64,000 nt of DNA from Prevotella aff. ruminicola Tc2-24 (GTDB lineage Bacteria > Bacteroidota > Bacteroidia > Bacteroidales > Bacteroidaceae): NCBI RefSeq assembly GCF_900110895.1, contig NZ_FOIQ01000001.1, forward strand, positions 836,472 to 900,471, in the 5' to 3' direction. A model generated the notes under the pieces. That model saw only the letters and a list, made by a program, of their open reading frames with translations, had not been told where the DNA came from and made no database searches. Positions within the stretch are counted from its first letter, which is position 1. The number at the start of each line of letters is the position of its first letter. The position numbers and the translations under genes are program-made. Positions 24,739-33,947 of the stretch are shown one piece after another.

Positions 24739-24908
24739 AGCCACATCCACCCTTGTTTGAATTATACAAAAACTCTACAAGCACATTTTTACGGCACTCA
24801 AAACACAATACATGCAAAATTTATAAAACATTAAGTCTTAATAATTTAGCATATATCCACAACTCTCCATTTCCTTAACACAGCTATTTTTCGAACTCTA
24901 TATCAGAT

Positions 24909-24939
24909 TTTGTAGTTTCAAAACTATTCACTACCTTTG
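24909..24939 (+). promoter_or_regulatory. Promoter of the candidate phosphate operon
   Basis: TTTG (24909-24912), 19 bases, TACCTTTG (24932-24939): exact consensus. Leader about 45 bases to the ATG at 24988. Confidence 0.78.
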
Positions 24940-24987: not shown

Positions 24988-25635
24988 ATGCTTGGACGAA
25001 ACAAAGTAAAACAGATTGTAGCAGACCTCGACCAGTTCATTGATAAGATGGACGAGTGCGTACTGATTTATAAGAACGGCATCAGGAACTACCTGGAAGG
25101 AAACAAGGATGCTTTCAATGGTAATATCCAGGCGATCACCGCTATTCGCGACAACACTACAGACATGCGTCGCGGTATAGAGAACAGTCTCTACACCTAT
25201 GCCCTCATCACCGAGAACCGTATCGACATTCTGCAGTTGTTGGAGCACATGGACATGATTGTAGGACAGCTCTATAAGAACCTAGTGCAATATGAGATTG
25301 AGATTCCTTTCTTCCCCTCTGAGTTGAACATCGAGTTCCTGAAACTGGTGGAGTTGGTGTCGCTCTCTGTGGAAATCGTGGCACAGGCTATCCGCGATCA
25401 TTTCCGTTCGCCGCAGCAATTGACGGAAAAGATTCACACCATTTATTTCTATGAAAAAGAGGTGGAGAAACTGGCTCAGGCCATCAAGCGTAAGGTGTTC
25501 CACGAGATGGAAAACTTTAAACTCAGTCAGAAAATACACTTGCGTTATTTCACGCTCCATGTAGAACAAATAGCCGAGGAGGCCGTCAAGGCCGCCGACC
25601 TGTTGTCGGTACTGGCAGTTAAACAGCGTTACTAA
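24988..25635 (+). CDS. DUF47 / PhoU-like protein
   Basis: 215 residues, all helical, matching the DUF47 (TIGR00153) branch of the PhoU superfamily: repeated four-helix patterns with conserved acidic residues (for example HMDMIVGQLYKNLVQYEIE and YFYEKEVEKLAQAIKRKVF). DUF47 proteins are normally encoded next to PiT phosphate transporters and are thought to modulate them. Here the following gene, 15 bases on, is a PiT-like protein with a DNA-binding domain, which strongly supports a role in phosphate handling. Cytosolic, no signal peptide. Confidence 0.9.
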   Translation: MLGRNKVKQIVADLDQFIDKMDECVLIYKNGIRNYLEGNKDAFNGNIQAITAIRDNTTDMRRGIENSLYTYALITENRIDILQLLEHMDMIVGQLYKNLVQYEIEIPFFPSELNIEFLKLVELVSLSVEIVAQAIRDHFRSPQQLTEKIHTIYFYEKEVEKLAQAIKRKVFHEMENFKLSQKIHLRYFTLHVEQIAEEAVKAADLLSVLAVKQRY

Positions 25636-25650
25636 AAATCCTTTTCGCTC

Positions 25651-27213
25651 ATGCTGATCGTTGCCATCATCCTCATATTATCGATATGCTTCTGTCTCGG
25701 ATGGAAGGAGCTTGCCAACAGCTTCTCCGACATCCACGTGGCAGATATCTTGAGGGTATGGCCGTTCCTGATCTGTCTGCTCGTGGCGATGTCGACAGGT
25801 ACAGGACTGATTATCCTGCATGAGAACAGCTATTTTATGGCAGGCATGGGCGAGGTGATCACCGTTCTAGTATCTATGGTGCTCACTCTCGTGCTCATGT
25901 CGACAATCAACAGACCCTATTCCACTGTCACCATCTTCTGGGGTGTACTGCTGGCCATGAAATACACACAAGAAGGGCATGCCGACAGCATTATCTGGGC
26001 TACCGTCATGGTATCCATCATCGTCGCCCCCCTACTAAGCATGGCAGCCTCTGTGCTTTTCCATTCGATGATACGCAGCTATATCGAGGAGAGCAACATG
26101 CATCTTCTGATGAAACAGCTCTACACCAAATGGATTGCTTATGTGGGTCTGATACTTGGAGGCATCGCCCTGGCCTGTAACTACGGCCTGTTTATCGACT
26201 CACTGTTCACGCCCCTATATCGAGGACACGCCGGCAACTGGTGTCTATGGCTGTTTGTAGTGGCCGCCAGTGTGGTATGCCTGAGTCCCATCGTCAGATG
26301 TGTCTACCAGCGCTCACATAGCAACGGAATGTCCAGACACGTATCGTCGCTCTATGCACAGGCCCTGGTAATGACCATTATGAACACCCTGCTGCCGCTC
26401 ATCACAGGATTGTTCCCCCCCGTGCTTGTGTCGGCTAACCTACTGAAAGAGAGCAACACCCTCATCTTGGAACGGGGGAAGGAGAGCCGGAGTGTGATGA
26501 ACATTGTGTCGATAGCCGTCACCTCACCATTGCTGGCCTTCCTGATCGGAGCTGGCATGAGATGGTTCTATGCCCGTCCCTACTTCTTCTGGGCAGTCGC
26601 TCTGTTCACCGTGCTCGTATGCTCGATGATCAGGCTCTACTACATACAATATAAAAAGAACAAGTATGTCAGTCGGATGCTCAGTGACGAGCTGAGACAC
26701 CGCGATGAAGTGAGTCACGAGATGAACCGTCTGGATGTGATGGCTGTCACCTCACAGTTTGACAGCATGACGCGTGAGATCGATTTCAAACACAGAGAAC
26801 TCATCGACCTATCGCTCTTCGTGCAACAGCAACGCGAATATATGACCGAGGTGGGTGCCCGCCTCAGGCGCCTCATCCAAGAGAACAACATAGAGAGCAT
26901 CAAGAAGTCGCTGACAGATATCGATCGCGATCTGAAGGACACGCTGTGCTATCCACCTGAGATGGAGAAGATCTATCAGGATGTGGAGAAGATGCACCAC
27001 GACTTCGTATGCCGCCTGCAGATGCGCTGTCCGAACCTCTCGGAGCGTGAGCGGCGGCTCGCCATCCTTCTACGATTAGGATTCTCAAGCAAGGAGATTG
27101 CCAGCATCGTGAACCTGGAGACAAAAAGTATCGAGATTAATCGCTACCGACTGCGAAAGAAGCTGCAACTCGACCGTGGTGAGAATCTGGTAGGTTATCT
27201 GCAGATGCTGTAA
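25651..27213 (+). CDS. PiT-like membrane protein fused to a LuxR-type helix-turn-helix
   Basis: 520 residues. Residues 1-345 carry about nine membrane helices whose arrangement follows the PiT (PHO4) phosphate transporter family: GWKELANSFSDI corresponds to the GxNDxxN motif near the first helix and INRPYSTVTIFWGV to the GLPxSTT motif, but key residues are altered. Residues about 350-445 are a charged coiled coil. Residues about 460-520 are a LuxR-type DNA-binding domain (LSERERRLAILLRLGFSSKEIASIVN). I infer a membrane-bound phosphate sensor and transcription factor derived from a transporter. Immediately downstream of DUF47 (15 bases). The PiT relationship is by pattern, so moderately sure; the HTH is clear. 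Confidence 0.72.
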   Translation: MLIVAIILILSICFCLGWKELANSFSDIHVADILRVWPFLICLLVAMSTGTGLIILHENSYFMAGMGEVITVLVSMVLTLVLMSTINRPYSTVTIFWGVLLAMKYTQEGHADSIIWATVMVSIIVAPLLSMAASVLFHSMIRSYIEESNMHLLMKQLYTKWIAYVGLILGGIALACNYGLFIDSLFTPLYRGHAGNWCLWLFVVAASVVCLSPIVRCVYQRSHSNGMSRHVSSLYAQALVMTIMNTLLPLITGLFPPVLVSANLLKESNTLILERGKESRSVMNIVSIAVTSPLLAFLIGAGMRWFYARPYFFWAVALFTVLVCSMIRLYYIQYKKNKYVSRMLSDELRHRDEVSHEMNRLDVMAVTSQFDSMTREIDFKHRELIDLSLFVQQQREYMTEVGARLRRLIQENNIESIKKSLTDIDRDLKDTLCYPPEMEKIYQDVEKMHHDFVCRLQMRCPNLSERERRLAILLRLGFSSKEIASIVNLETKSIEINRYRLRKKLQLDRGENLVGYLQML

Positions 27214-27280
27214 GTATTCATTTGACGTCTAACTTTTCTAACGACCAAATTTATATTAATTCACTAATCCAACAACAATT

Positions 27281-28642
27281 ATGAGAAAAACTGCATTTCT
27301 GACTTTAGGAGCCTTGCTACTGATAAGCGGCAGCATGTCGGCTCAGGAGAACGAGGAAGTACGCTACAACCAGTATGGCGTAGCGGTCGACAGGAAGGAG
27401 TTGCATACTGAAGCACGCAACAACATTCTTGTCATGGAGTCTAAAGACCAAAGCTACAAACTGTGGATGGATAACCGCGTACAGGTTGACGGTGCCTCTT
27501 TCTGGGGCGCCAAGTCCGATTTCGACAGAATCGGTAACGGTGTGAGCACCCGTCGTGTACGTTTCGCCATCAAGGCACAGATTACCAAAGACTGGTACGG
27601 TGAGGTCGACATGGATATGGCCGACGGTGTCTTTGAACTCAAGGATGCTATCATCGAGTACGACGGCCTAAAGAACGTAGAGTTGAAGATGGGTAACTTC
27701 AAAGAAGACTTCTCCATGGAGCGCACCACCACCTCTCGCTATCTGCAGTTCATCGAGCGCCCGATGGTCACCCAGGCCCTCGCGCCTTCACGCCATCTGG
27801 GATTCCAGGCAGCCTATCTGCGCGACCACTTCCGCGCCTCTATCGGAACCTTCTTTCAGGCTATCGAAGGAGCAGAGGCAGCTGAGAATGTCCAGAACAA
27901 CAACAAGGACTTCGGACGCAGTCAAGGCTACTCGATCACCTCAAAGATCGGATGGATGCCTTACAACCAAGAGCGCACCATGGGAGTCTACCTTGCAGGA
28001 AAAGGTTCCTACCGTACACCTAAGACCGACGAGGCTGCTTCCGACTACGGTGGCATGCGTTTCAGCACCCGTAACTCTACAAGCATCAACCGTAAGAAGT
28101 ATATCGACACGGATGTCATCCCTAACGTGCACCACCAGTGGCTCTATGGTATTGAGTCGGCCGGCTACTACAAAGGTATGAAATACCAGACTGAGTGGAT
28201 CAACACCCACGTAGCCGTACCTGGCGAGGGTTATGATTTCGGCGGTTACTACGCACAAGTAGGTTTTCTGCTCCTCGGCGGTCAGCAGCACTTCAACGTG
28301 GCAGAGGGTGAGTTCACATCAATCGCTCCAGGTAAGAAATGGGGTGACATCGAACTCGGTCTGCGCTACGACTATCTCGACCTGAACGATCGGAACATCT
28401 ACGGAGGCTCTGGCCAGAACTATACAGCAGGTCTGACCTTCTACTTCGGAAACTCTGTCAAGATGGTACTGAACTACATGCGCTCAATTAATGACCGCTA
28501 TGCCAACGGAAAGGGTAAGCTGATTGTCGGTCATGATGCCGCCGGCAAACCGACCGCCGACTTCACCAAGGTCACAGAGCCCAAGGGCAAGGGAGGTATC
28601 AAATACAACACCCTGGCAGTACGTTTCGAGATCAATTTCTAA
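27281..28642 (+). CDS. OprP/OprO-like outer-membrane porin
   Basis: 453 residues. Signal peptide of about 21 residues (ending SMSAQ), then alternating beta-strands typical of the phosphate-selective porin O/P family (PF07396): IKAQITKDWYGEVDMDMADGVFELKDAIIEY and RYLQFIERPMVTQALAPSRHLGFQAAY are family landmarks, and the protein ends with an aromatic (INF) as outer-membrane barrels do. Its place behind DUF47 and the PiT-like regulator supports phosphate or polyphosphate passage across the outer membrane. Confidence 0.9.
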   Translation: MRKTAFLTLGALLLISGSMSAQENEEVRYNQYGVAVDRKELHTEARNNILVMESKDQSYKLWMDNRVQVDGASFWGAKSDFDRIGNGVSTRRVRFAIKAQITKDWYGEVDMDMADGVFELKDAIIEYDGLKNVELKMGNFKEDFSMERTTTSRYLQFIERPMVTQALAPSRHLGFQAAYLRDHFRASIGTFFQAIEGAEAAENVQNNNKDFGRSQGYSITSKIGWMPYNQERTMGVYLAGKGSYRTPKTDEAASDYGGMRFSTRNSTSINRKKYIDTDVIPNVHHQWLYGIESAGYYKGMKYQTEWINTHVAVPGEGYDFGGYYAQVGFLLLGGQQHFNVAEGEFTSIAPGKKWGDIELGLRYDYLDLNDRNIYGGSGQNYTAGLTFYFGNSVKMVLNYMRSINDRYANGKGKLIVGHDAAGKPTADFTKVTEPKGKGGIKYNTLAVRFEINF

Positions 28643-28679: not shown

Positions 28680-29519
28680 ATGAAGACAATAAAATATATG
28701 CTCGTGCTCGCCACCATGTCTCTGATGGCCGCATGCGTAGAAGATGAGGTCTACGAAGGACCTTCAAACATTGACTCGGTAACTGCCGACGTGGCAGCGC
28801 CCACTTCCAACGACGCCGTAACCGTGACAGCCACCATCTCCGGGCTCCAGGCAGCGAAGACAGTGACGTTAGCCTATACCCTCAATGGCGGCAGTGCCAA
28901 TGAAGTTGCCATGACAGGTAGCGGTAGCACCTACACTGGCGTAATCCCTGCTCAGGCTGATGGCACCACCGTGAAGTACACGGTGACTGTTGTGAACGAG
29001 GCTGGTTTCTCCAGCACCTCTCCCGAACGTGAGTATGTTGTAGGCGATCCCCCAACAGACTTTACGAAGCTGCGTCTGAACGAACTCTACGGAGCCGCCG
29101 ATACTGACGAGGGTAAGTTCATCGAGTTGTATAACATGAGCGAGTTCCCCATCAAACTGAAGGGCATCACCATCAACAAGGATGAGAAACTGGCATGGAC
29201 AGGCATCGAGGGCGAGGTAATTCCTGCACATGGTGTGTTCGCCATCATCGGCGCCAAGGGAACCACTGAGCGTGGTATCAGCAGCGGTTTCTCCAACAAG
29301 AAGTCTGTACTGATTGAGCTCTTCGATCCCAGCGGACAACTGATTGACAAGTTCCAGCGTGGAGAGAAAGACGCAGAATGGGGCAGTCAGTCACTCGACA
29401 AGGTGAAAGGCTCGTGGAGCCGCATCCCTGATGGCGAGGGTAAGTGGAAGATTACCGATCCCACCTGCGGTGAGAAGAACGCCAGCGAAGGAAAGGATGA
29501 TGAGACTGTAGTACAATAA
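28680..29519 (+). CDS. Lipoprotein with Ig/FN3-like and lamin-tail domains
   Basis: 279 residues. Lipobox SLMAAC (Cys about 19); an Ig- or FN3-like domain at about 35-120 (VTVTATISGLQ ... VKYTVTVVNEAGFSS); a lamin-tail domain at about 130-265 (KLRLNELYGAADTDEGKFIELYNMSEFPIKL ... GSWSRIPDGEGKW). LTDs in bacteria occur in secreted and surface proteins, often with hydrolases; no enzyme is seen here. 37 bases after the porin gene; probably a surface or periplasmic accessory of the operon. Confidence 0.82.
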   Translation: MKTIKYMLVLATMSLMAACVEDEVYEGPSNIDSVTADVAAPTSNDAVTVTATISGLQAAKTVTLAYTLNGGSANEVAMTGSGSTYTGVIPAQADGTTVKYTVTVVNEAGFSSTSPEREYVVGDPPTDFTKLRLNELYGAADTDEGKFIELYNMSEFPIKLKGITINKDEKLAWTGIEGEVIPAHGVFAIIGAKGTTERGISSGFSNKKSVLIELFDPSGQLIDKFQRGEKDAEWGSQSLDKVKGSWSRIPDGEGKWKITDPTCGEKNASEGKDDETVVQ

Positions 29520-29561: not shown

Positions 29562-30206
29562 ATGGAAAAAGACAAACTGAAGATCGGCGAGATCTCTAAA
29601 CCGCGTTTTGAATTCCGCAGCTTCGGCCGTTGCTTCTGCGACGCTGCCAAGCGTATGGCACGCCTCAGCGTACCCGTTCCTGAGAAAGTATGGGAACGTC
29701 ACAGCACAGAAACTTATATCGTGAGCCGCACCAACGACGTGAATAATACTAAGATCCGTGACGGAAAGATGGACATCAAGACTTTCGTACAGAGCGTAGA
29801 CGGTCTGGAGCAGTGGAACCCGCTGATGAAGGGTGAGTTCCCGATCGCCAAGGAGGTACTGGAGAACGATGTGTTCCCCGCCTTCAAGGTGAACGGTCTG
29901 CCGAAGCTCGACAAGCCTACATACACTCTCGAGGAGTTCCTCAGCATCATCGATGCTCACCCCGACCTCGAGGCCGTGAAGGTAGAGAAGGTACGTTTTG
30001 GCTATATGGTGAACGACACCATCTGCGAGACTGGCGACGTCTATATCAACGGTGCTTTGGTGAAGACCATCAACTCAGAGTCTACTGAGATCGAGGATAT
30101 CAAGAAGACCATTGCCGACGTAGGACTGGAGGGTGTCGAGAACATCAACTACCTGCAGGCTATCAAGCGTGTGATTGGAATGATTAAGAAACCTTTAGCA
30201 AACTAA
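29562..30206 (+). CDS. CYTH-like (triphosphate tunnel) protein, first of two
   Basis: 214 residues. The pattern fits a divergent CYTH fold: FEFRSFG near the start, TYIVSRTNDVNNTKIRDGKMDIK (basic strand Arg/Lys residues facing a tunnel), VEKVRFGYMVNDTICETGDVYING, and a C-terminal VNY segment. CYTH proteins bind or hydrolyse triphosphates and polyphosphate in a beta-tunnel. No signal peptide. Four bases before the classical CYTH gene and after the lamin-tail lipoprotein. Assigned by pattern; enzyme activity uncertain because the standard ExExK motif is not present. Confidence 0.6.
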   Translation: MEKDKLKIGEISKPRFEFRSFGRCFCDAAKRMARLSVPVPEKVWERHSTETYIVSRTNDVNNTKIRDGKMDIKTFVQSVDGLEQWNPLMKGEFPIAKEVLENDVFPAFKVNGLPKLDKPTYTLEEFLSIIDAHPDLEAVKVEKVRFGYMVNDTICETGDVYINGALVKTINSESTEIEDIKKTIADVGLEGVENINYLQAIKRVIGMIKKPLAN

Positions 30207-30210
30207 AATT

Positions 30211-30681
30211 ATGGCACAGGAAATAGAACGTAAATTCCTTGTAAAAGGTGATTTCAAAAGCGAAGTTTTCAAAAGTACTCGTATCACTCAGGGCTATCTC
30301 AGTTCAGTACCCGAGCGCACTGTCCGCGTGAGAGTGAAGGGCGAAAAGGGCTTTATCACTATCAAAGGTATTGGCAACGAGAGCGGAGCCAGTCGCTACG
30401 AGTGGGAGAAGGAGATTCCCGTCGAGGAGGTTCGCGAGTTGCTGAAGATCTGTGAGCCTGGTGTCATTGACAAGACACGCTATCTGGTGAAGAATGGCGA
30501 GTTCACCTTCGAGGTGGATGAGTTCTACGGCGACAACGAAGGACTGACAGTAGCAGAGATCGAGTTGCCCGACGAGCAGGCCGAGTTCAACCGTCCAGCA
30601 TGGCTGGGTGAGGAGGTGACAGGCGATGTGCGCTTCTACAACTCCATGCTCATGAAGAACCCGTATAAGAACTGGAAGTAA
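30211..30681 (+). CDS. CYTH domain protein (triphosphate tunnel metalloenzyme)
   Basis: 156 residues, a complete single CYTH domain. The metal-binding EIERKFLV (ExExK) at residues 4-11 and alternating basic strands (RTVRVRVKG, KGFITIKG, KTRYLV, FEVDEFYG, VAEIELP) are all present. Bacterial relatives hydrolyse inorganic triphosphate or bind adenylate-type substrates. The position, 4 bases after another CYTH-like gene and in an operon with DUF47 and an OprP-like porin, suggests polyphosphate or triphosphate metabolism. Ends the first transcript: terminator at 30707-30747. Confidence 0.92.
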   Translation: MAQEIERKFLVKGDFKSEVFKSTRITQGYLSSVPERTVRVRVKGEKGFITIKGIGNESGASRYEWEKEIPVEEVRELLKICEPGVIDKTRYLVKNGEFTFEVDEFYGDNEGLTVAEIELPDEQAEFNRPAWLGEEVTGDVRFYNSMLMKNPYKNWK

Positions 30682-30764: not shown

Positions 30765-32471
30765 ATGAACAACAACAATATCCAAACCAAAACAGCGTTC
30801 GATCCGCTGGACATGAACAACTACCGCATCGAGAAACTGCCCAAGATGCAGAAGTCGGGCTTCGAGCGTGTGCTGCAACGCATCGGCGCACCACTCGCCC
30901 TTCTGGCATTCGTTCTCATCTACTGGGTAATAGACATCCCGTTTGTGGATAGGATCGACACCAATAAAACTACTACGACCCTGACGGAATCGGCAGTGAG
31001 CCGTTACGACCAGTTGGCTAACGCCACCATGAAAAAGCTCACCACTGGTGAGGCCGCCCAAGAAGTCTCTCCGCAACTGGAAGAACAGGTACAAGAGACA
31101 GCCCACCAGAAATTCATACGTATCAACTATGCCATGCTGGCTGTCTTTGTGGCCGCCATCATCTTATGGATCACAGAGGCCATTCCCAATTACCTCACCT
31201 CACTGATGGTGATACTGGGTATCGTGCTCACGGGCATCACCACAGACAAGACGGCCTATGCCCAGTTGGGACACCCAGTCATGTGGCTGAACATCCTCTC
31301 GTTCATTCTGGCGAGCATGCTTGTCAAGACACAGGTGGCCAAACGCTTTGCCCTGTGGTTTGTACTGAAGTTCGGACGGAATGCAGGAGGCATCATGATC
31401 AGCTTTATCATCATCAACCTAGTGCTCTCGGCCTTCATCTCCGCCACCACAGCAAAGGCTGCAATCTTGTTACCTATCTTCATGGTAGTGGCAGCCATAT
31501 ATGGTGCCACAGGCGGAGACCACAGGAATAACTTCGGCCGTAACCTCATCCTGCAGAATCTGTTCCAGATCAACCTCGGCGCCAACGCCTTCCTGACGGG
31601 TTCTGGCGCTACTCTCCTAGCTGGATCACTCATCGCCGGCGCCATGGGCATCGGCTCGTTCAGCTATCAGGATTGGTTCAAGGCCGCCTTCCCCATGAGC
31701 GTGTTTCTCATCCTCGTCGCCTGGTTCGTGGGCACGAAAATCTTCTTCCCTTTGAGAAAGGAGGAGCGTGTGCCTCAGATTGCAGGAGGCATGGAGCGTC
31801 TGCGCGAGGAACTGCAGAAGTTGGGTAAGATGCGCGCCGACGAGTGGAAAGCCGTCGCCATCTTCGTTGTCGTACTCATCCTCTGGGCCACTGACAAACA
31901 GCACGGCATCAACCAGACGGCCGTTGCCTTCATGGGTGCTGTCGTAGCACTGCTACCAGGCATCGGTGTGGTGAAATGGAACGACGTGGATATCCCTTGG
32001 CACCTGCTACTCTTCTCCGCTGGAGCATATACTCTGGGAGCCGGACTCGACGCCACAGGACTTCCCGGCACTCTGATCGACGCACTGTTTAATAGTCTCG
32101 GAATCACTGCCGAGACACCGTTCTGGGTACTCTACCTGATATTGACCGCTGGTATGCTGCTCTTCTCATTGATATTCCAGTCAAAGACGATGCTCACGCT
32201 TATTTTCGTGCCGATAGCCATCGGCGTGGCACAGAAGAACGGTTATCCGATTATGAGTCTCGCCTTCCCCGTAGCCATGCTCGTAGGCCATGTCTATGTG
32301 CTCCCGTTCAACAGTAAGCCTGCCGCCCTGCTCTACACCACGAATCAGTATAGTTGGAGCGACACCTTCAAGTTCGGCATCACCATGATGTTCATCAGCT
32401 GGCTCACCATTATCCTATGGGGTGAGACCGTTCTGAAGTGGTTCGGCTACACCAGCGGCGTATTTTTCTAA
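30765..32471 (+). CDS. SLC13/DASS-family anion symporter
   Basis: 568 residues with a soluble N-terminal ~110 residues including one span, then about 11 membrane helices. The first substrate/sodium loop (FLTGSGATLLAGSLIAGA) and the second repeat loop (YVLPFNSKPAALLYTTNQYSW) match the two SNT-type hairpins of divalent anion:Na+ symporters. Substrates in the family include dicarboxylates, sulfate and phosphate; the neighbourhood suggests phosphate but does not prove it. It begins 18 bases after the terminator; no convincing promoter is seen, so readthrough is possible. Confidence 0.88.
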   Translation: MNNNNIQTKTAFDPLDMNNYRIEKLPKMQKSGFERVLQRIGAPLALLAFVLIYWVIDIPFVDRIDTNKTTTTLTESAVSRYDQLANATMKKLTTGEAAQEVSPQLEEQVQETAHQKFIRINYAMLAVFVAAIILWITEAIPNYLTSLMVILGIVLTGITTDKTAYAQLGHPVMWLNILSFILASMLVKTQVAKRFALWFVLKFGRNAGGIMISFIIINLVLSAFISATTAKAAILLPIFMVVAAIYGATGGDHRNNFGRNLILQNLFQINLGANAFLTGSGATLLAGSLIAGAMGIGSFSYQDWFKAAFPMSVFLILVAWFVGTKIFFPLRKEERVPQIAGGMERLREELQKLGKMRADEWKAVAIFVVVLILWATDKQHGINQTAVAFMGAVVALLPGIGVVKWNDVDIPWHLLLFSAGAYTLGAGLDATGLPGTLIDALFNSLGITAETPFWVLYLILTAGMLLFSLIFQSKTMLTLIFVPIAIGVAQKNGYPIMSLAFPVAMLVGHVYVLPFNSKPAALLYTTNQYSWSDTFKFGITMMFISWLTIILWGETVLKWFGYTSGVFF

Positions 32472-32489: not shown

Positions 32490-33947
32490 ATGATAGATAT
32501 TCAACCAAAGATACACGACAGGAATACCCTCGAGTTCAAGGTGGGCTATAAGGCCTCTAACGGAGCCACATATAATGACTTCGAGATGAACACATGGATC
32601 TATATCCCAGAGACTCTGGGTGTAAACCGTCACACCTATCTGAAGGAGAATTTCTATCGTGACATACTGTCATATATACGACTGATTACCCCTTTCTACC
32701 ATCTTGACGAGTTGGCTTCGACCACGTGCCTGCCCTACCGTCGCCTGAGCGATGTGTGCATGGCGCTCCATCGGCAGCCCGACGAGAAAGAGCAGAAGAA
32801 CTACGAACGCGAGATTAAGATGTATGCCTCGATCTTCAAAAGCAGCATCCGCGACACGTTCCGAAACGCGCTCAACGAGAAAGGGACGCTCCGCGAGGCC
32901 CACTGCAAGGATGCTCTGGAGAGCATATCGAAGATCTTCGATATCTATCGCACACTCGGCAAGGAGATGGAGCAACGACCAGTACCCAGTCAGCAGATGC
33001 TCTACTTCCACTACGGCGACGAGTTCATGTCTAACGTTGTGGAACAGCATGTGTCGCGCCTTATCGAGCGACTGCGTTCCGAGGCCCCAGAGAGCTACAC
33101 GACACTAGAGCCTTCAATCCGTCAGGTGCTCGACAACGAGCACAGCTATCGTCAGCGCGTCGGCTATCTTTGCGTCGAAGAGAAAGACGACGAGAGCAAT
33201 ACCCAGTTCGTATATCACGCTGGTCAGCTTAAGAAGTATATCGAAAGTAACCTCTACCTGCCCACCCACAAACGTCGCAATGCCGTCTTCCTCGAGCAGA
33301 TGGTGTTCAGTCTGGCGGCTGGTTTGTCGATGGTCTTTGCCACAGTCATCTCGTTTGCATTCCAGCAGACCTATGGCAACTTCACCCTTCCCTTCTTCAT
33401 CGCCCTCGTCATCAGCTATATGTTTAAGGATCGTATTAAGGAACTGGTGCGTATCTACTTCGCCACCCGTCTGAGCAGTCGTCTGTTCGACTATAAGATT
33501 GGCATCCGCGTGGGCGATATCAAGGTGGGCTGGTGTAAGGAAGGGTTCGACTTCCTGACACCCGAGAAGATCTCCTCGCCTGTGAGGAAGATGCGTAACA
33601 GGCACTCACCGTTGGTCATCGGCCGAGGAACAGAAGAACAGGTCATCCAGTATCGTAAGCGTATCCACCTGAACCAGAAGGCCGTCAACCGTCTGTCACC
33701 CTATCCGCTCAGTGGCATCAACGATATCGTACGCTACAACCTCTCTGAGTTCATGCGTAAGATGGATAACCCCAAGGTCTCATTGTGTGCCAACAAGGGC
33801 GACGGCCAGTACGTGCCGGCCGAAGGACGCAAAGTGTATTACCTGAACCTCATCATCCAGTTCAAGTACGAGAACACCACCCGATTCTATCGTTATCGTG
33901 TGTGCATGAGCAGGAAGGGCATACACAAAATCAAAGAGATAAGATGA
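32490..33947 (+). CDS. Uncharacterised two-TM protein
   Basis: 485 residues, family not recognised. A predicted soluble N-terminal region (1-265) with alpha/beta and helical parts, two hydrophobic helices at about 270-290 and 295-312 (FSLAAGLSMVFATVISFAF and FTLPFFIALVISYMF), and a basic C-terminal region (about 320-485) rich in Arg/Lys and beta-strands. No signal peptide. 18 bases downstream of the SLC13 gene and overlapping the following lipoprotein gene by ATGA, so it acts in the same unit. No catalytic motif visible. Confidence 0.75.
   Translation: MIDIQPKIHDRNTLEFKVGYKASNGATYNDFEMNTWIYIPETLGVNRHTYLKENFYRDILSYIRLITPFYHLDELASTTCLPYRRLSDVCMALHRQPDEKEQKNYEREIKMYASIFKSSIRDTFRNALNEKGTLREAHCKDALESISKIFDIYRTLGKEMEQRPVPSQQMLYFHYGDEFMSNVVEQHVSRLIERLRSEAPESYTTLEPSIRQVLDNEHSYRQRVGYLCVEEKDDESNTQFVYHAGQLKKYIESNLYLPTHKRRNAVFLEQMVFSLAAGLSMVFATVISFAFQQTYGNFTLPFFIALVISYMFKDRIKELVRIYFATRLSSRLFDYKIGIRVGDIKVGWCKEGFDFLTPEKISSPVRKMRNRHSPLVIGRGTEEQVIQYRKRIHLNQKAVNRLSPYPLSGINDIVRYNLSEFMRKMDNPKVSLCANKGDGQYVPAEGRKVYYLNLIIQFKYENTTRFYRYRVCMSRKGIHKIKEIR

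Follow-up and report, generated by a model that had tools for sequence, protein, structure and literature searches.

The DNA analyzed here, called the window, is a 64,000-nt stretch of the genome of Prevotella aff. ruminicola Tc2-24 (GCF_900110895.1, NZ_FOIQ01000001.1, positions 836,472 to 900,471, forward strand); the home assembly of 2.9 Mb has a completeness of 99.97%. The features considered are centered on an open reading frame for a 520-aa protein, PiT-LuxR:

24761..24779, + strand: operator-like repeat ATTATACAAAAACTCTACA, about 215 bp before the DUF47 gene (motif conservation, no binding data)
24893..24904, + strand: second repeat GAACTCTATATC, 123 bp downstream of the first repeat
24932..24939, + strand: Bacteroidota-type -7 box TACCTTTG, matching TANNTTTG; probable operon promoter, similarly placed in most relatives
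24988..25635, + strand: DUF47 / PhoU_div (PitR-type) gene (Pfam 3.7e-10), with a 15-bp gap to PiT-LuxR
25651..27213, + strand: putative PiT-LuxR membrane regulator, 520 aa (ORF; full-length homologues in other rumen Bacteroidales; wider fusion family)
25651..26571, + strand: predicted PiT-fold membrane domain, residues 1-307, two repeats (AlphaFold2, Foldseek, residue mapping)
26578..27030, + strand: added TM helix (residues 310-335) and coiled coil (similarity to C-termini of other Bacteroidales regulators)
27034..27171, + strand: LuxR/GerE helix-turn-helix, residues 462-507 (Pfam GerE)
27281..28642, + strand: Porin_O_P outer-membrane porin, OprP-like (Pfam 7.3e-35), conserved next gene, 67 bp after PiT-LuxR
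28680..29519, + strand: lamin-tail-domain (LTD) lipoprotein (Pfam LTD)
29562..30206, + strand: conserved 214-aa protein, 72-95% identity across Bacteroidales operons
30211..30681, + strand: CYTH-domain (triphosphatase-type) protein (Pfam 6.4e-17)
30765..32471, + strand: DASS-family sodium-coupled anion symporter (TIGR00785, 215.3 bits over a cut-off of 198.6)
32490..33947, + strand: membrane protein of unknown function, last conserved gene (conservation across loci)

The 520-aa protein begins with a multi-helix membrane domain, which is followed by one additional membrane helix, a coiled coil, and a LuxR/GerE domain. GerE exceeds the Pfam cut-off in the window protein (26.0 versus 23.5 bits) and was matched in 11 of 11 family members; no receiver domain is among the Pfam matches of the window protein. 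The PHO4 match, at 3.4e-7 and 30.0 bits, lies below the curated Pfam cut-off of 33.7 bits and was found in 4 of the 11 members, and nowhere in the home assembly is there a PHO4 match above the cut-off. In the AlphaFold2 model described below, about nine long helices and additional short half-helices precede the last membrane helix at residues 310-335. A previous sequence-only reading had described a nine-helix N-terminus with degenerate PiT-like motif positions, followed by a coiled coil and a LuxR-type DNA-binding domain, in a gene directly after DUF47. All of this held, the number of helices approximately; the four signatures could be located at the residue level.

Ten more full-length proteins align end to end with the window protein; the close relatives in the named genome collection come mostly from MAGs of rumen and other ruminant Prevotella/Bacteroidales. 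The group is called the rumen branch, or window branch, in the following. Searching 398 genomes of the genus with the N-terminus yielded nine carriers, that is, the window genome, seven with full-length genes, and one in which the gene is split over two contig ends. A split PiT-LuxR gene is seen at L074 1-200 and L075 1-140 (genome G255), where the frame stops at the break in unrelated sequence, perhaps an inserted element. A genome-collection search with the N-terminal alignment returned ten loci, seven matching genomes found before and three additional, whereas scanning genome contigs with the whole protein revealed no relative. The viral collection contained no relatives.

The fold of the membrane domain was predicted with AlphaFold2 for residues 1-336, using 11 family members, without templates and with no PiT transporter in the alignment. 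When the resulting model (pLDDT 82.9, pTM 0.83) was compared with the PDB by Foldseek, the top match was TmPiT (6l85_A), with a probability of 1.00 and a TM of 0.61; for the remaining listed matches, the probability was at most 0.33 and the TM at most 0.25. The membrane domain is predicted by this model, without a solved structure, to have the PiT fold, with TmPiT as the sole convincing match in the PDB. A structure prediction with a non-PiT fold had been named in advance as the result that would refute the sequence-only reading; it was not obtained. In a full-length model (pTM 0.55), the membrane part was too poor to be used. The E-value of the TmPiT match is modest (7e-3), and therefore PHO4-bearing intermediates are needed as support. 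Searches of PDB sequences with the protein or with family profiles gave no PiT match, HMMs built for this analysis from local PiTs, both short and long, performed no better than shuffles on the rumen branch, and hhalign of the rumen branch against local PiTs, with DASS as a control, was not significant. Given the sub-cut-off PHO4 match and the failure of profiles to exceed shuffles, PiT descent of the window branch cannot be proven by sequence comparison alone; these null results are resolved by the fold match in combination with the intermediates.

The intermediates were found with the N-terminal profile in 393 genomes of the order, which gave weak matches in 16 further genomes. Eight of the proteins read from this search are 578-615 aa long and have PHO4 at 8e-40 to 3e-64 as well as a LuxR end. 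The PHO4 scores of the wider fusion members, 137-218 bits, are over the cut-off, and GerE is above the cut-off in most of the eight. As these intermediates have an unmistakable PHO4 domain and the same operon, a PiT protein must have been joined to a TM-coiled-coil-LuxR module. The fusion is shown, and the window gene most likely belongs to a rumen branch that has diverged within a wider Bacteroidales PiT-LuxR fusion family. Thus, the claim of a transporter fold turned into a membrane transcription factor is supported by the predicted fold and the PHO4-bearing intermediates, and what had been seen as a single gene is now found spread through the order Bacteroidales. Outside the order, the strongest PiT matches in 396 genomes of the phylum cover the PiT part only, and the nine that were read have other C-termini; therefore, among the sampled genomes, the fusion is seen only in Bacteroidales.

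As direct parents, canonical 340-aa PiTs and 750-aa PiTs seem less likely than a third lineage of PiTs, which occurs in other Bacteroidota and has GANNI as its second signature. In PiTs from other Bacteroidota (L150, L153-L157), the first signature is GANHA or GANDG and the second is GANNI, and the C-terminus is extended by some 130-150 aa. PiT-like proteins of ~350 aa (L128, L129, L130, L136) with GASGTAP or GGSGIGP as the first and GANNVAN as the second signature form another diverged group of PiTs. L125/L146 were considered as a PiT-PAS kinase and rejected, with no kinase or HTH within the next 1.2 kb. At L146 (5039-6274), DUF47 is accompanied by a PiT with an added TM helix, the ORF of which ends without an HTH; the output domain may have been lost there. 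At L142, the regulator pair is present and a u32490 relative is close by, and L147 is located at a contig end.

The degenerate signatures of the window protein are at residues 17-24 (GWKELANS for GANDVANS), 91-94 (STVT for STTH), 175-178 (ACNY for GAND), and 260-263 (VSAN for ISTT). GANDVANA-type signatures with the conserved D are absent; in their place are GWKELANS and ACNYGLFI, with D replaced by E and by Y or F, respectively, in 11 of 11 members. In PiT2, the transport-critical residues are D28, E55, S113, H502, D506, E575, and S593 (PMC3126765), and the rumen-branch residues were mapped to them by alignment through TmPiT. D28 is replaced by E20, which is invariant in the rumen branch. The S113 position corresponds to the invariant S91 and is the only critical position that stays invariant. 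At the H502 position there is L174 or M (the histidine is replaced in 11 of 11 members), at D506 Y178 or F, at E575 a hydrophobic or small residue, and at S593 S or A. The E55 position is without an acid, as it is in local Bacteroidales short PiTs. These residue replacements are shown; that the rumen branch no longer transports is inferred from the loss of most PiT2-critical residues, without uptake data. E20, H151, and E267 are family-specific invariants of the rumen branch and may point to a site that is altered yet maintained.

Alternatively, the protein could be a true transceptor, in which phosphate transport is retained and the DNA-binding tail is a second function. In favor of this, most of the wider fusions retain GANDAAN or a near form, STSQ, and GANNIAN/GANNIGN, and CbrA provides a precedent for the combination of a transporter and signaling domains (PMC13022988). 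However, none of the 11 window-branch members retains the histidine or either signature aspartate, and the wider fusions have N in place of the second signature D, which makes a transceptor unlikely. Another alternative, a degenerating transporter that was fused by chance and has no regulatory role, could invoke the fast divergence of the membrane domain, with 26-54% identity within the family versus 76-97% for the CYTH, DASS, and 214-aa neighbors. This explanation is very unlikely in view of the intact frames in 11 loci, the strongly conserved HTH, the 23 invariant residues in the membrane domain of the rumen branch, and the synteny across the order.

Residues 303-520 match the C-termini of many Bacteroidales regulators with TPR arrays or Reg_prop/Y_Y_Y propellers (E-values down to 1e-21), and in the best cases the match starts at the extra TM helix. 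The C-termini of PiT1 and PiT2 are predicted to be extracellular (PMC3126765), and therefore the added helix at 310-335 would place the HTH in the cytoplasm. The segment that follows residue 335, YKKNKYVSR, is basic. In a tree of the C-terminal module, the rumen branch forms one group (support 98/99), and the tree leaves unresolved whether the rumen branch and the wider fusions go back to one or to several fusion events. The shared synteny favors a single event, which remains a possibility that the module tree does not settle.

The conservation of the operon is shown. Where the stretch suffices, the gene order in the rumen branch is DUF47, PiT-LuxR, OprP-like porin, LTD, 214-aa protein, CYTH, DASS, and membrane protein, and DUF47 is immediately upstream of PiT-LuxR in every relative with a readable upstream side. 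Among ten wider-flank loci that were fetched, DUF47 is directly upstream in all ten, the OprP and LTD genes continue in seven, and six of these seven continue with the 214-aa and CYTH genes, within the fetched stretch. Close relatives of the LTD gene occur only alongside the PiT-LuxR operon (201 family genomes). The 214-aa protein (29562-30206) has no Pfam or NCBIfam match and is an unusually conserved unknown beside the CYTH protein. The DASS symporter, which is present wherever the stretch reaches, could serve the locus as an importer of phosphate or of another anion.

DUF47 proteins (PF01865) are PitR, and in S. aureus PitR and Pit together regulate phosphate homeostasis (PMC13170248). A one-component phosphate sensor, as proposed by the sequence-only reading, is supported, yet it is an inference from the architecture and the gene neighbors, and the role of DUF47 is likewise inferred. 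It is conceivable that the same regulator has a ligand other than orthophosphate, for example sulfate, pyrophosphate/polyphosphate, or another anion handled by DASS. The operon contains the DASS anion transporter, and therefore the ligand may be another anion; moreover, binding-site positions in the second repeat are lost, and the family-specific invariant E267 is located there. PiT-type sulfate permeases exist, which also favors this alternative. On the other hand, DUF47, the OprP-type porin, and the CYTH protein indicate that the ligand is phosphate or polyphosphate, and the first GAND signature is kept by the intermediates.

Upstream of DUF47, the motif [AT]A[ACT]CWCTAYA is present in 19 copies on the + strand and in none on the other strand across ten rumen-branch regions, compared with a mean of 0.43 and a maximum of 3 in shuffled regions. 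The spacings of the repeats favor multiples of about 11 bp (22, 32-33, 55, and 122-123), with the caveat for this statistic that the loci, having a common ancestry, do not count as independent. Several of the more distant operons, not all, also have the motif. This motif conservation is shown, whereas the DNA target and the direction of control are inferred. A motif-based search for a genome-wide regulon in the home genome gave 7 near matches versus 8 in a reversed control, and only the window site was exact; with near matches at chance, a local target is therefore likelier than a large regulon. The operators that the sequence-only reading had proposed at 24909-24939 and 27214-27280 both failed: the palindrome TAGTTTCAAAACTA at 24913-24926, within the first region, is not conserved in relatives, and the second region has no copy of the shared CWCTAYA repeat.

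The CWCTAYA repeats resemble the 11-bp direct-repeat Pho box, and therefore a different regulator could bind. Possibly, they are Pho boxes for a PhoB-type response regulator, and PiT-LuxR controls other genes; the spacings at multiples of about 11 bp and the resemblance of one repeat unit to the Pho box speak for this. However, neither PhoB (TIGR02154) nor PstB (TIGR00972) was above the cut-off in any of seven carriers. The PhoB cut-off is strict (only 2 of 14 controls pass), so that the absence of PhoB in carriers is likely, not proven. Two further points argue against the Pho-box reading: the home genome has one OmpR-family match, of about 157 bits, at the level of the other carriers, and the window site is its only exact motif match. 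Na/Pi cotransporters are present in all seven carriers tested, and therefore phosphate uptake need not depend on the PiT-LuxR locus.

The reading that we prefer is that PiT-LuxR is likely a membrane-embedded one-component regulator, probably a phosphate sensor that acts with DUF47 on its own operon; the ligand, DNA binding, and the loss of transport are inferred. An ancestral PiT transporter, paired with DUF47/PitR, would have gained the TM-coiled-coil-LuxR module at its outward-facing C-terminus. In the rumen branch, the PiT fold would act as a sensor only, without transport, and the sensed ligand would most likely be inorganic phosphate on the outside (or a related anion), and DUF47 would be the partner. 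A ligand-driven change would pass via the added helix and the coiled coil to paired DNA-binding domains, which would act on the CWCTAYA repeats upstream of DUF47. The controlled operon would comprise DUF47, PiT-LuxR itself, the OprP-like porin, the LTD lipoprotein, the CYTH protein, and the DASS transporter.

PiT-LuxR shares features with several known systems and differs from each of them. With PiT/PHO4 (SLC20) transporters such as TmPiT (6L85), it has in common the membrane fold, the two repeats, both signature positions, and the DUF47 neighbor; these transporters lack the extra TM helix, the coiled coil, and the LuxR domain, and the window branch has lost nearly all transport-critical residues. 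The C-terminal module is common to the Bacteroidales TM-coiled-coil-LuxR regulators, which have a TPR or Reg_prop/Y_Y_Y sensor rather than a membrane transporter fold. As in the PitR/Pit system of S. aureus, the DUF47 protein has a Pit-family partner in phosphate regulation; however, PitR acts on the PhoPR two-component system (PMC13170248), whereas here the Pit partner itself bears the DNA-binding domain. ToxR and CadC are likewise one-component, membrane-bound regulators that bind DNA from the membrane, but they have a single TM helix, another DNA-binding domain, and a periplasmic sensor. In Ks-Amt5, an ammonium transporter fold joined to a histidine kinase binds without translocating (PMC5764959), and a transporter fold is reused as a sensor there as well; it differs in having an Amt fold and a kinase output, while PiT-LuxR has a PiT fold, a DNA-binding output, and no kinase. 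CbrA, an SLC5 transporter joined to a kinase (PMC13022988), also unites a transporter and a signaling output in one polypeptide; unlike PiT-LuxR, it has an SLC5 fold with STAC and kinase domains and acts through CbrB.

In PiT-LuxR, a transporter fold is covalently joined to a signaling output, as indicated by the predicted fold and the wider fusions. In the mainly open-access literature searched, we found neither a PiT-LuxR fusion nor a direct fusion of a PiT fold to a DNA-binding domain. Few sensors derive from transporter folds, and both described examples that we found, Ks-Amt5 and CbrA, signal through kinases; PiT-LuxR would connect nutrient recognition to a promoter by the shortest route. 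Plain PiTs, fusions that keep most signatures, and the rumen branch without them form a graded series, and therefore the step from transporter to sensor is directly testable. A bolder reading, which we regard as tentative and would not put ahead of its negation, is that PiT-LuxR and DUF47/PitR constitute an order-wide phosphate-sensing system of Bacteroidales, in which the receptor is linked directly to promoter DNA and which replaces classical Pho control in lineages without recognizable Pst and PhoB. For gut and rumen Bacteroidales, in whose tested carriers no PhoB or PstB exceeded the curated cut-offs, PiT-LuxR is a candidate phosphate regulator.
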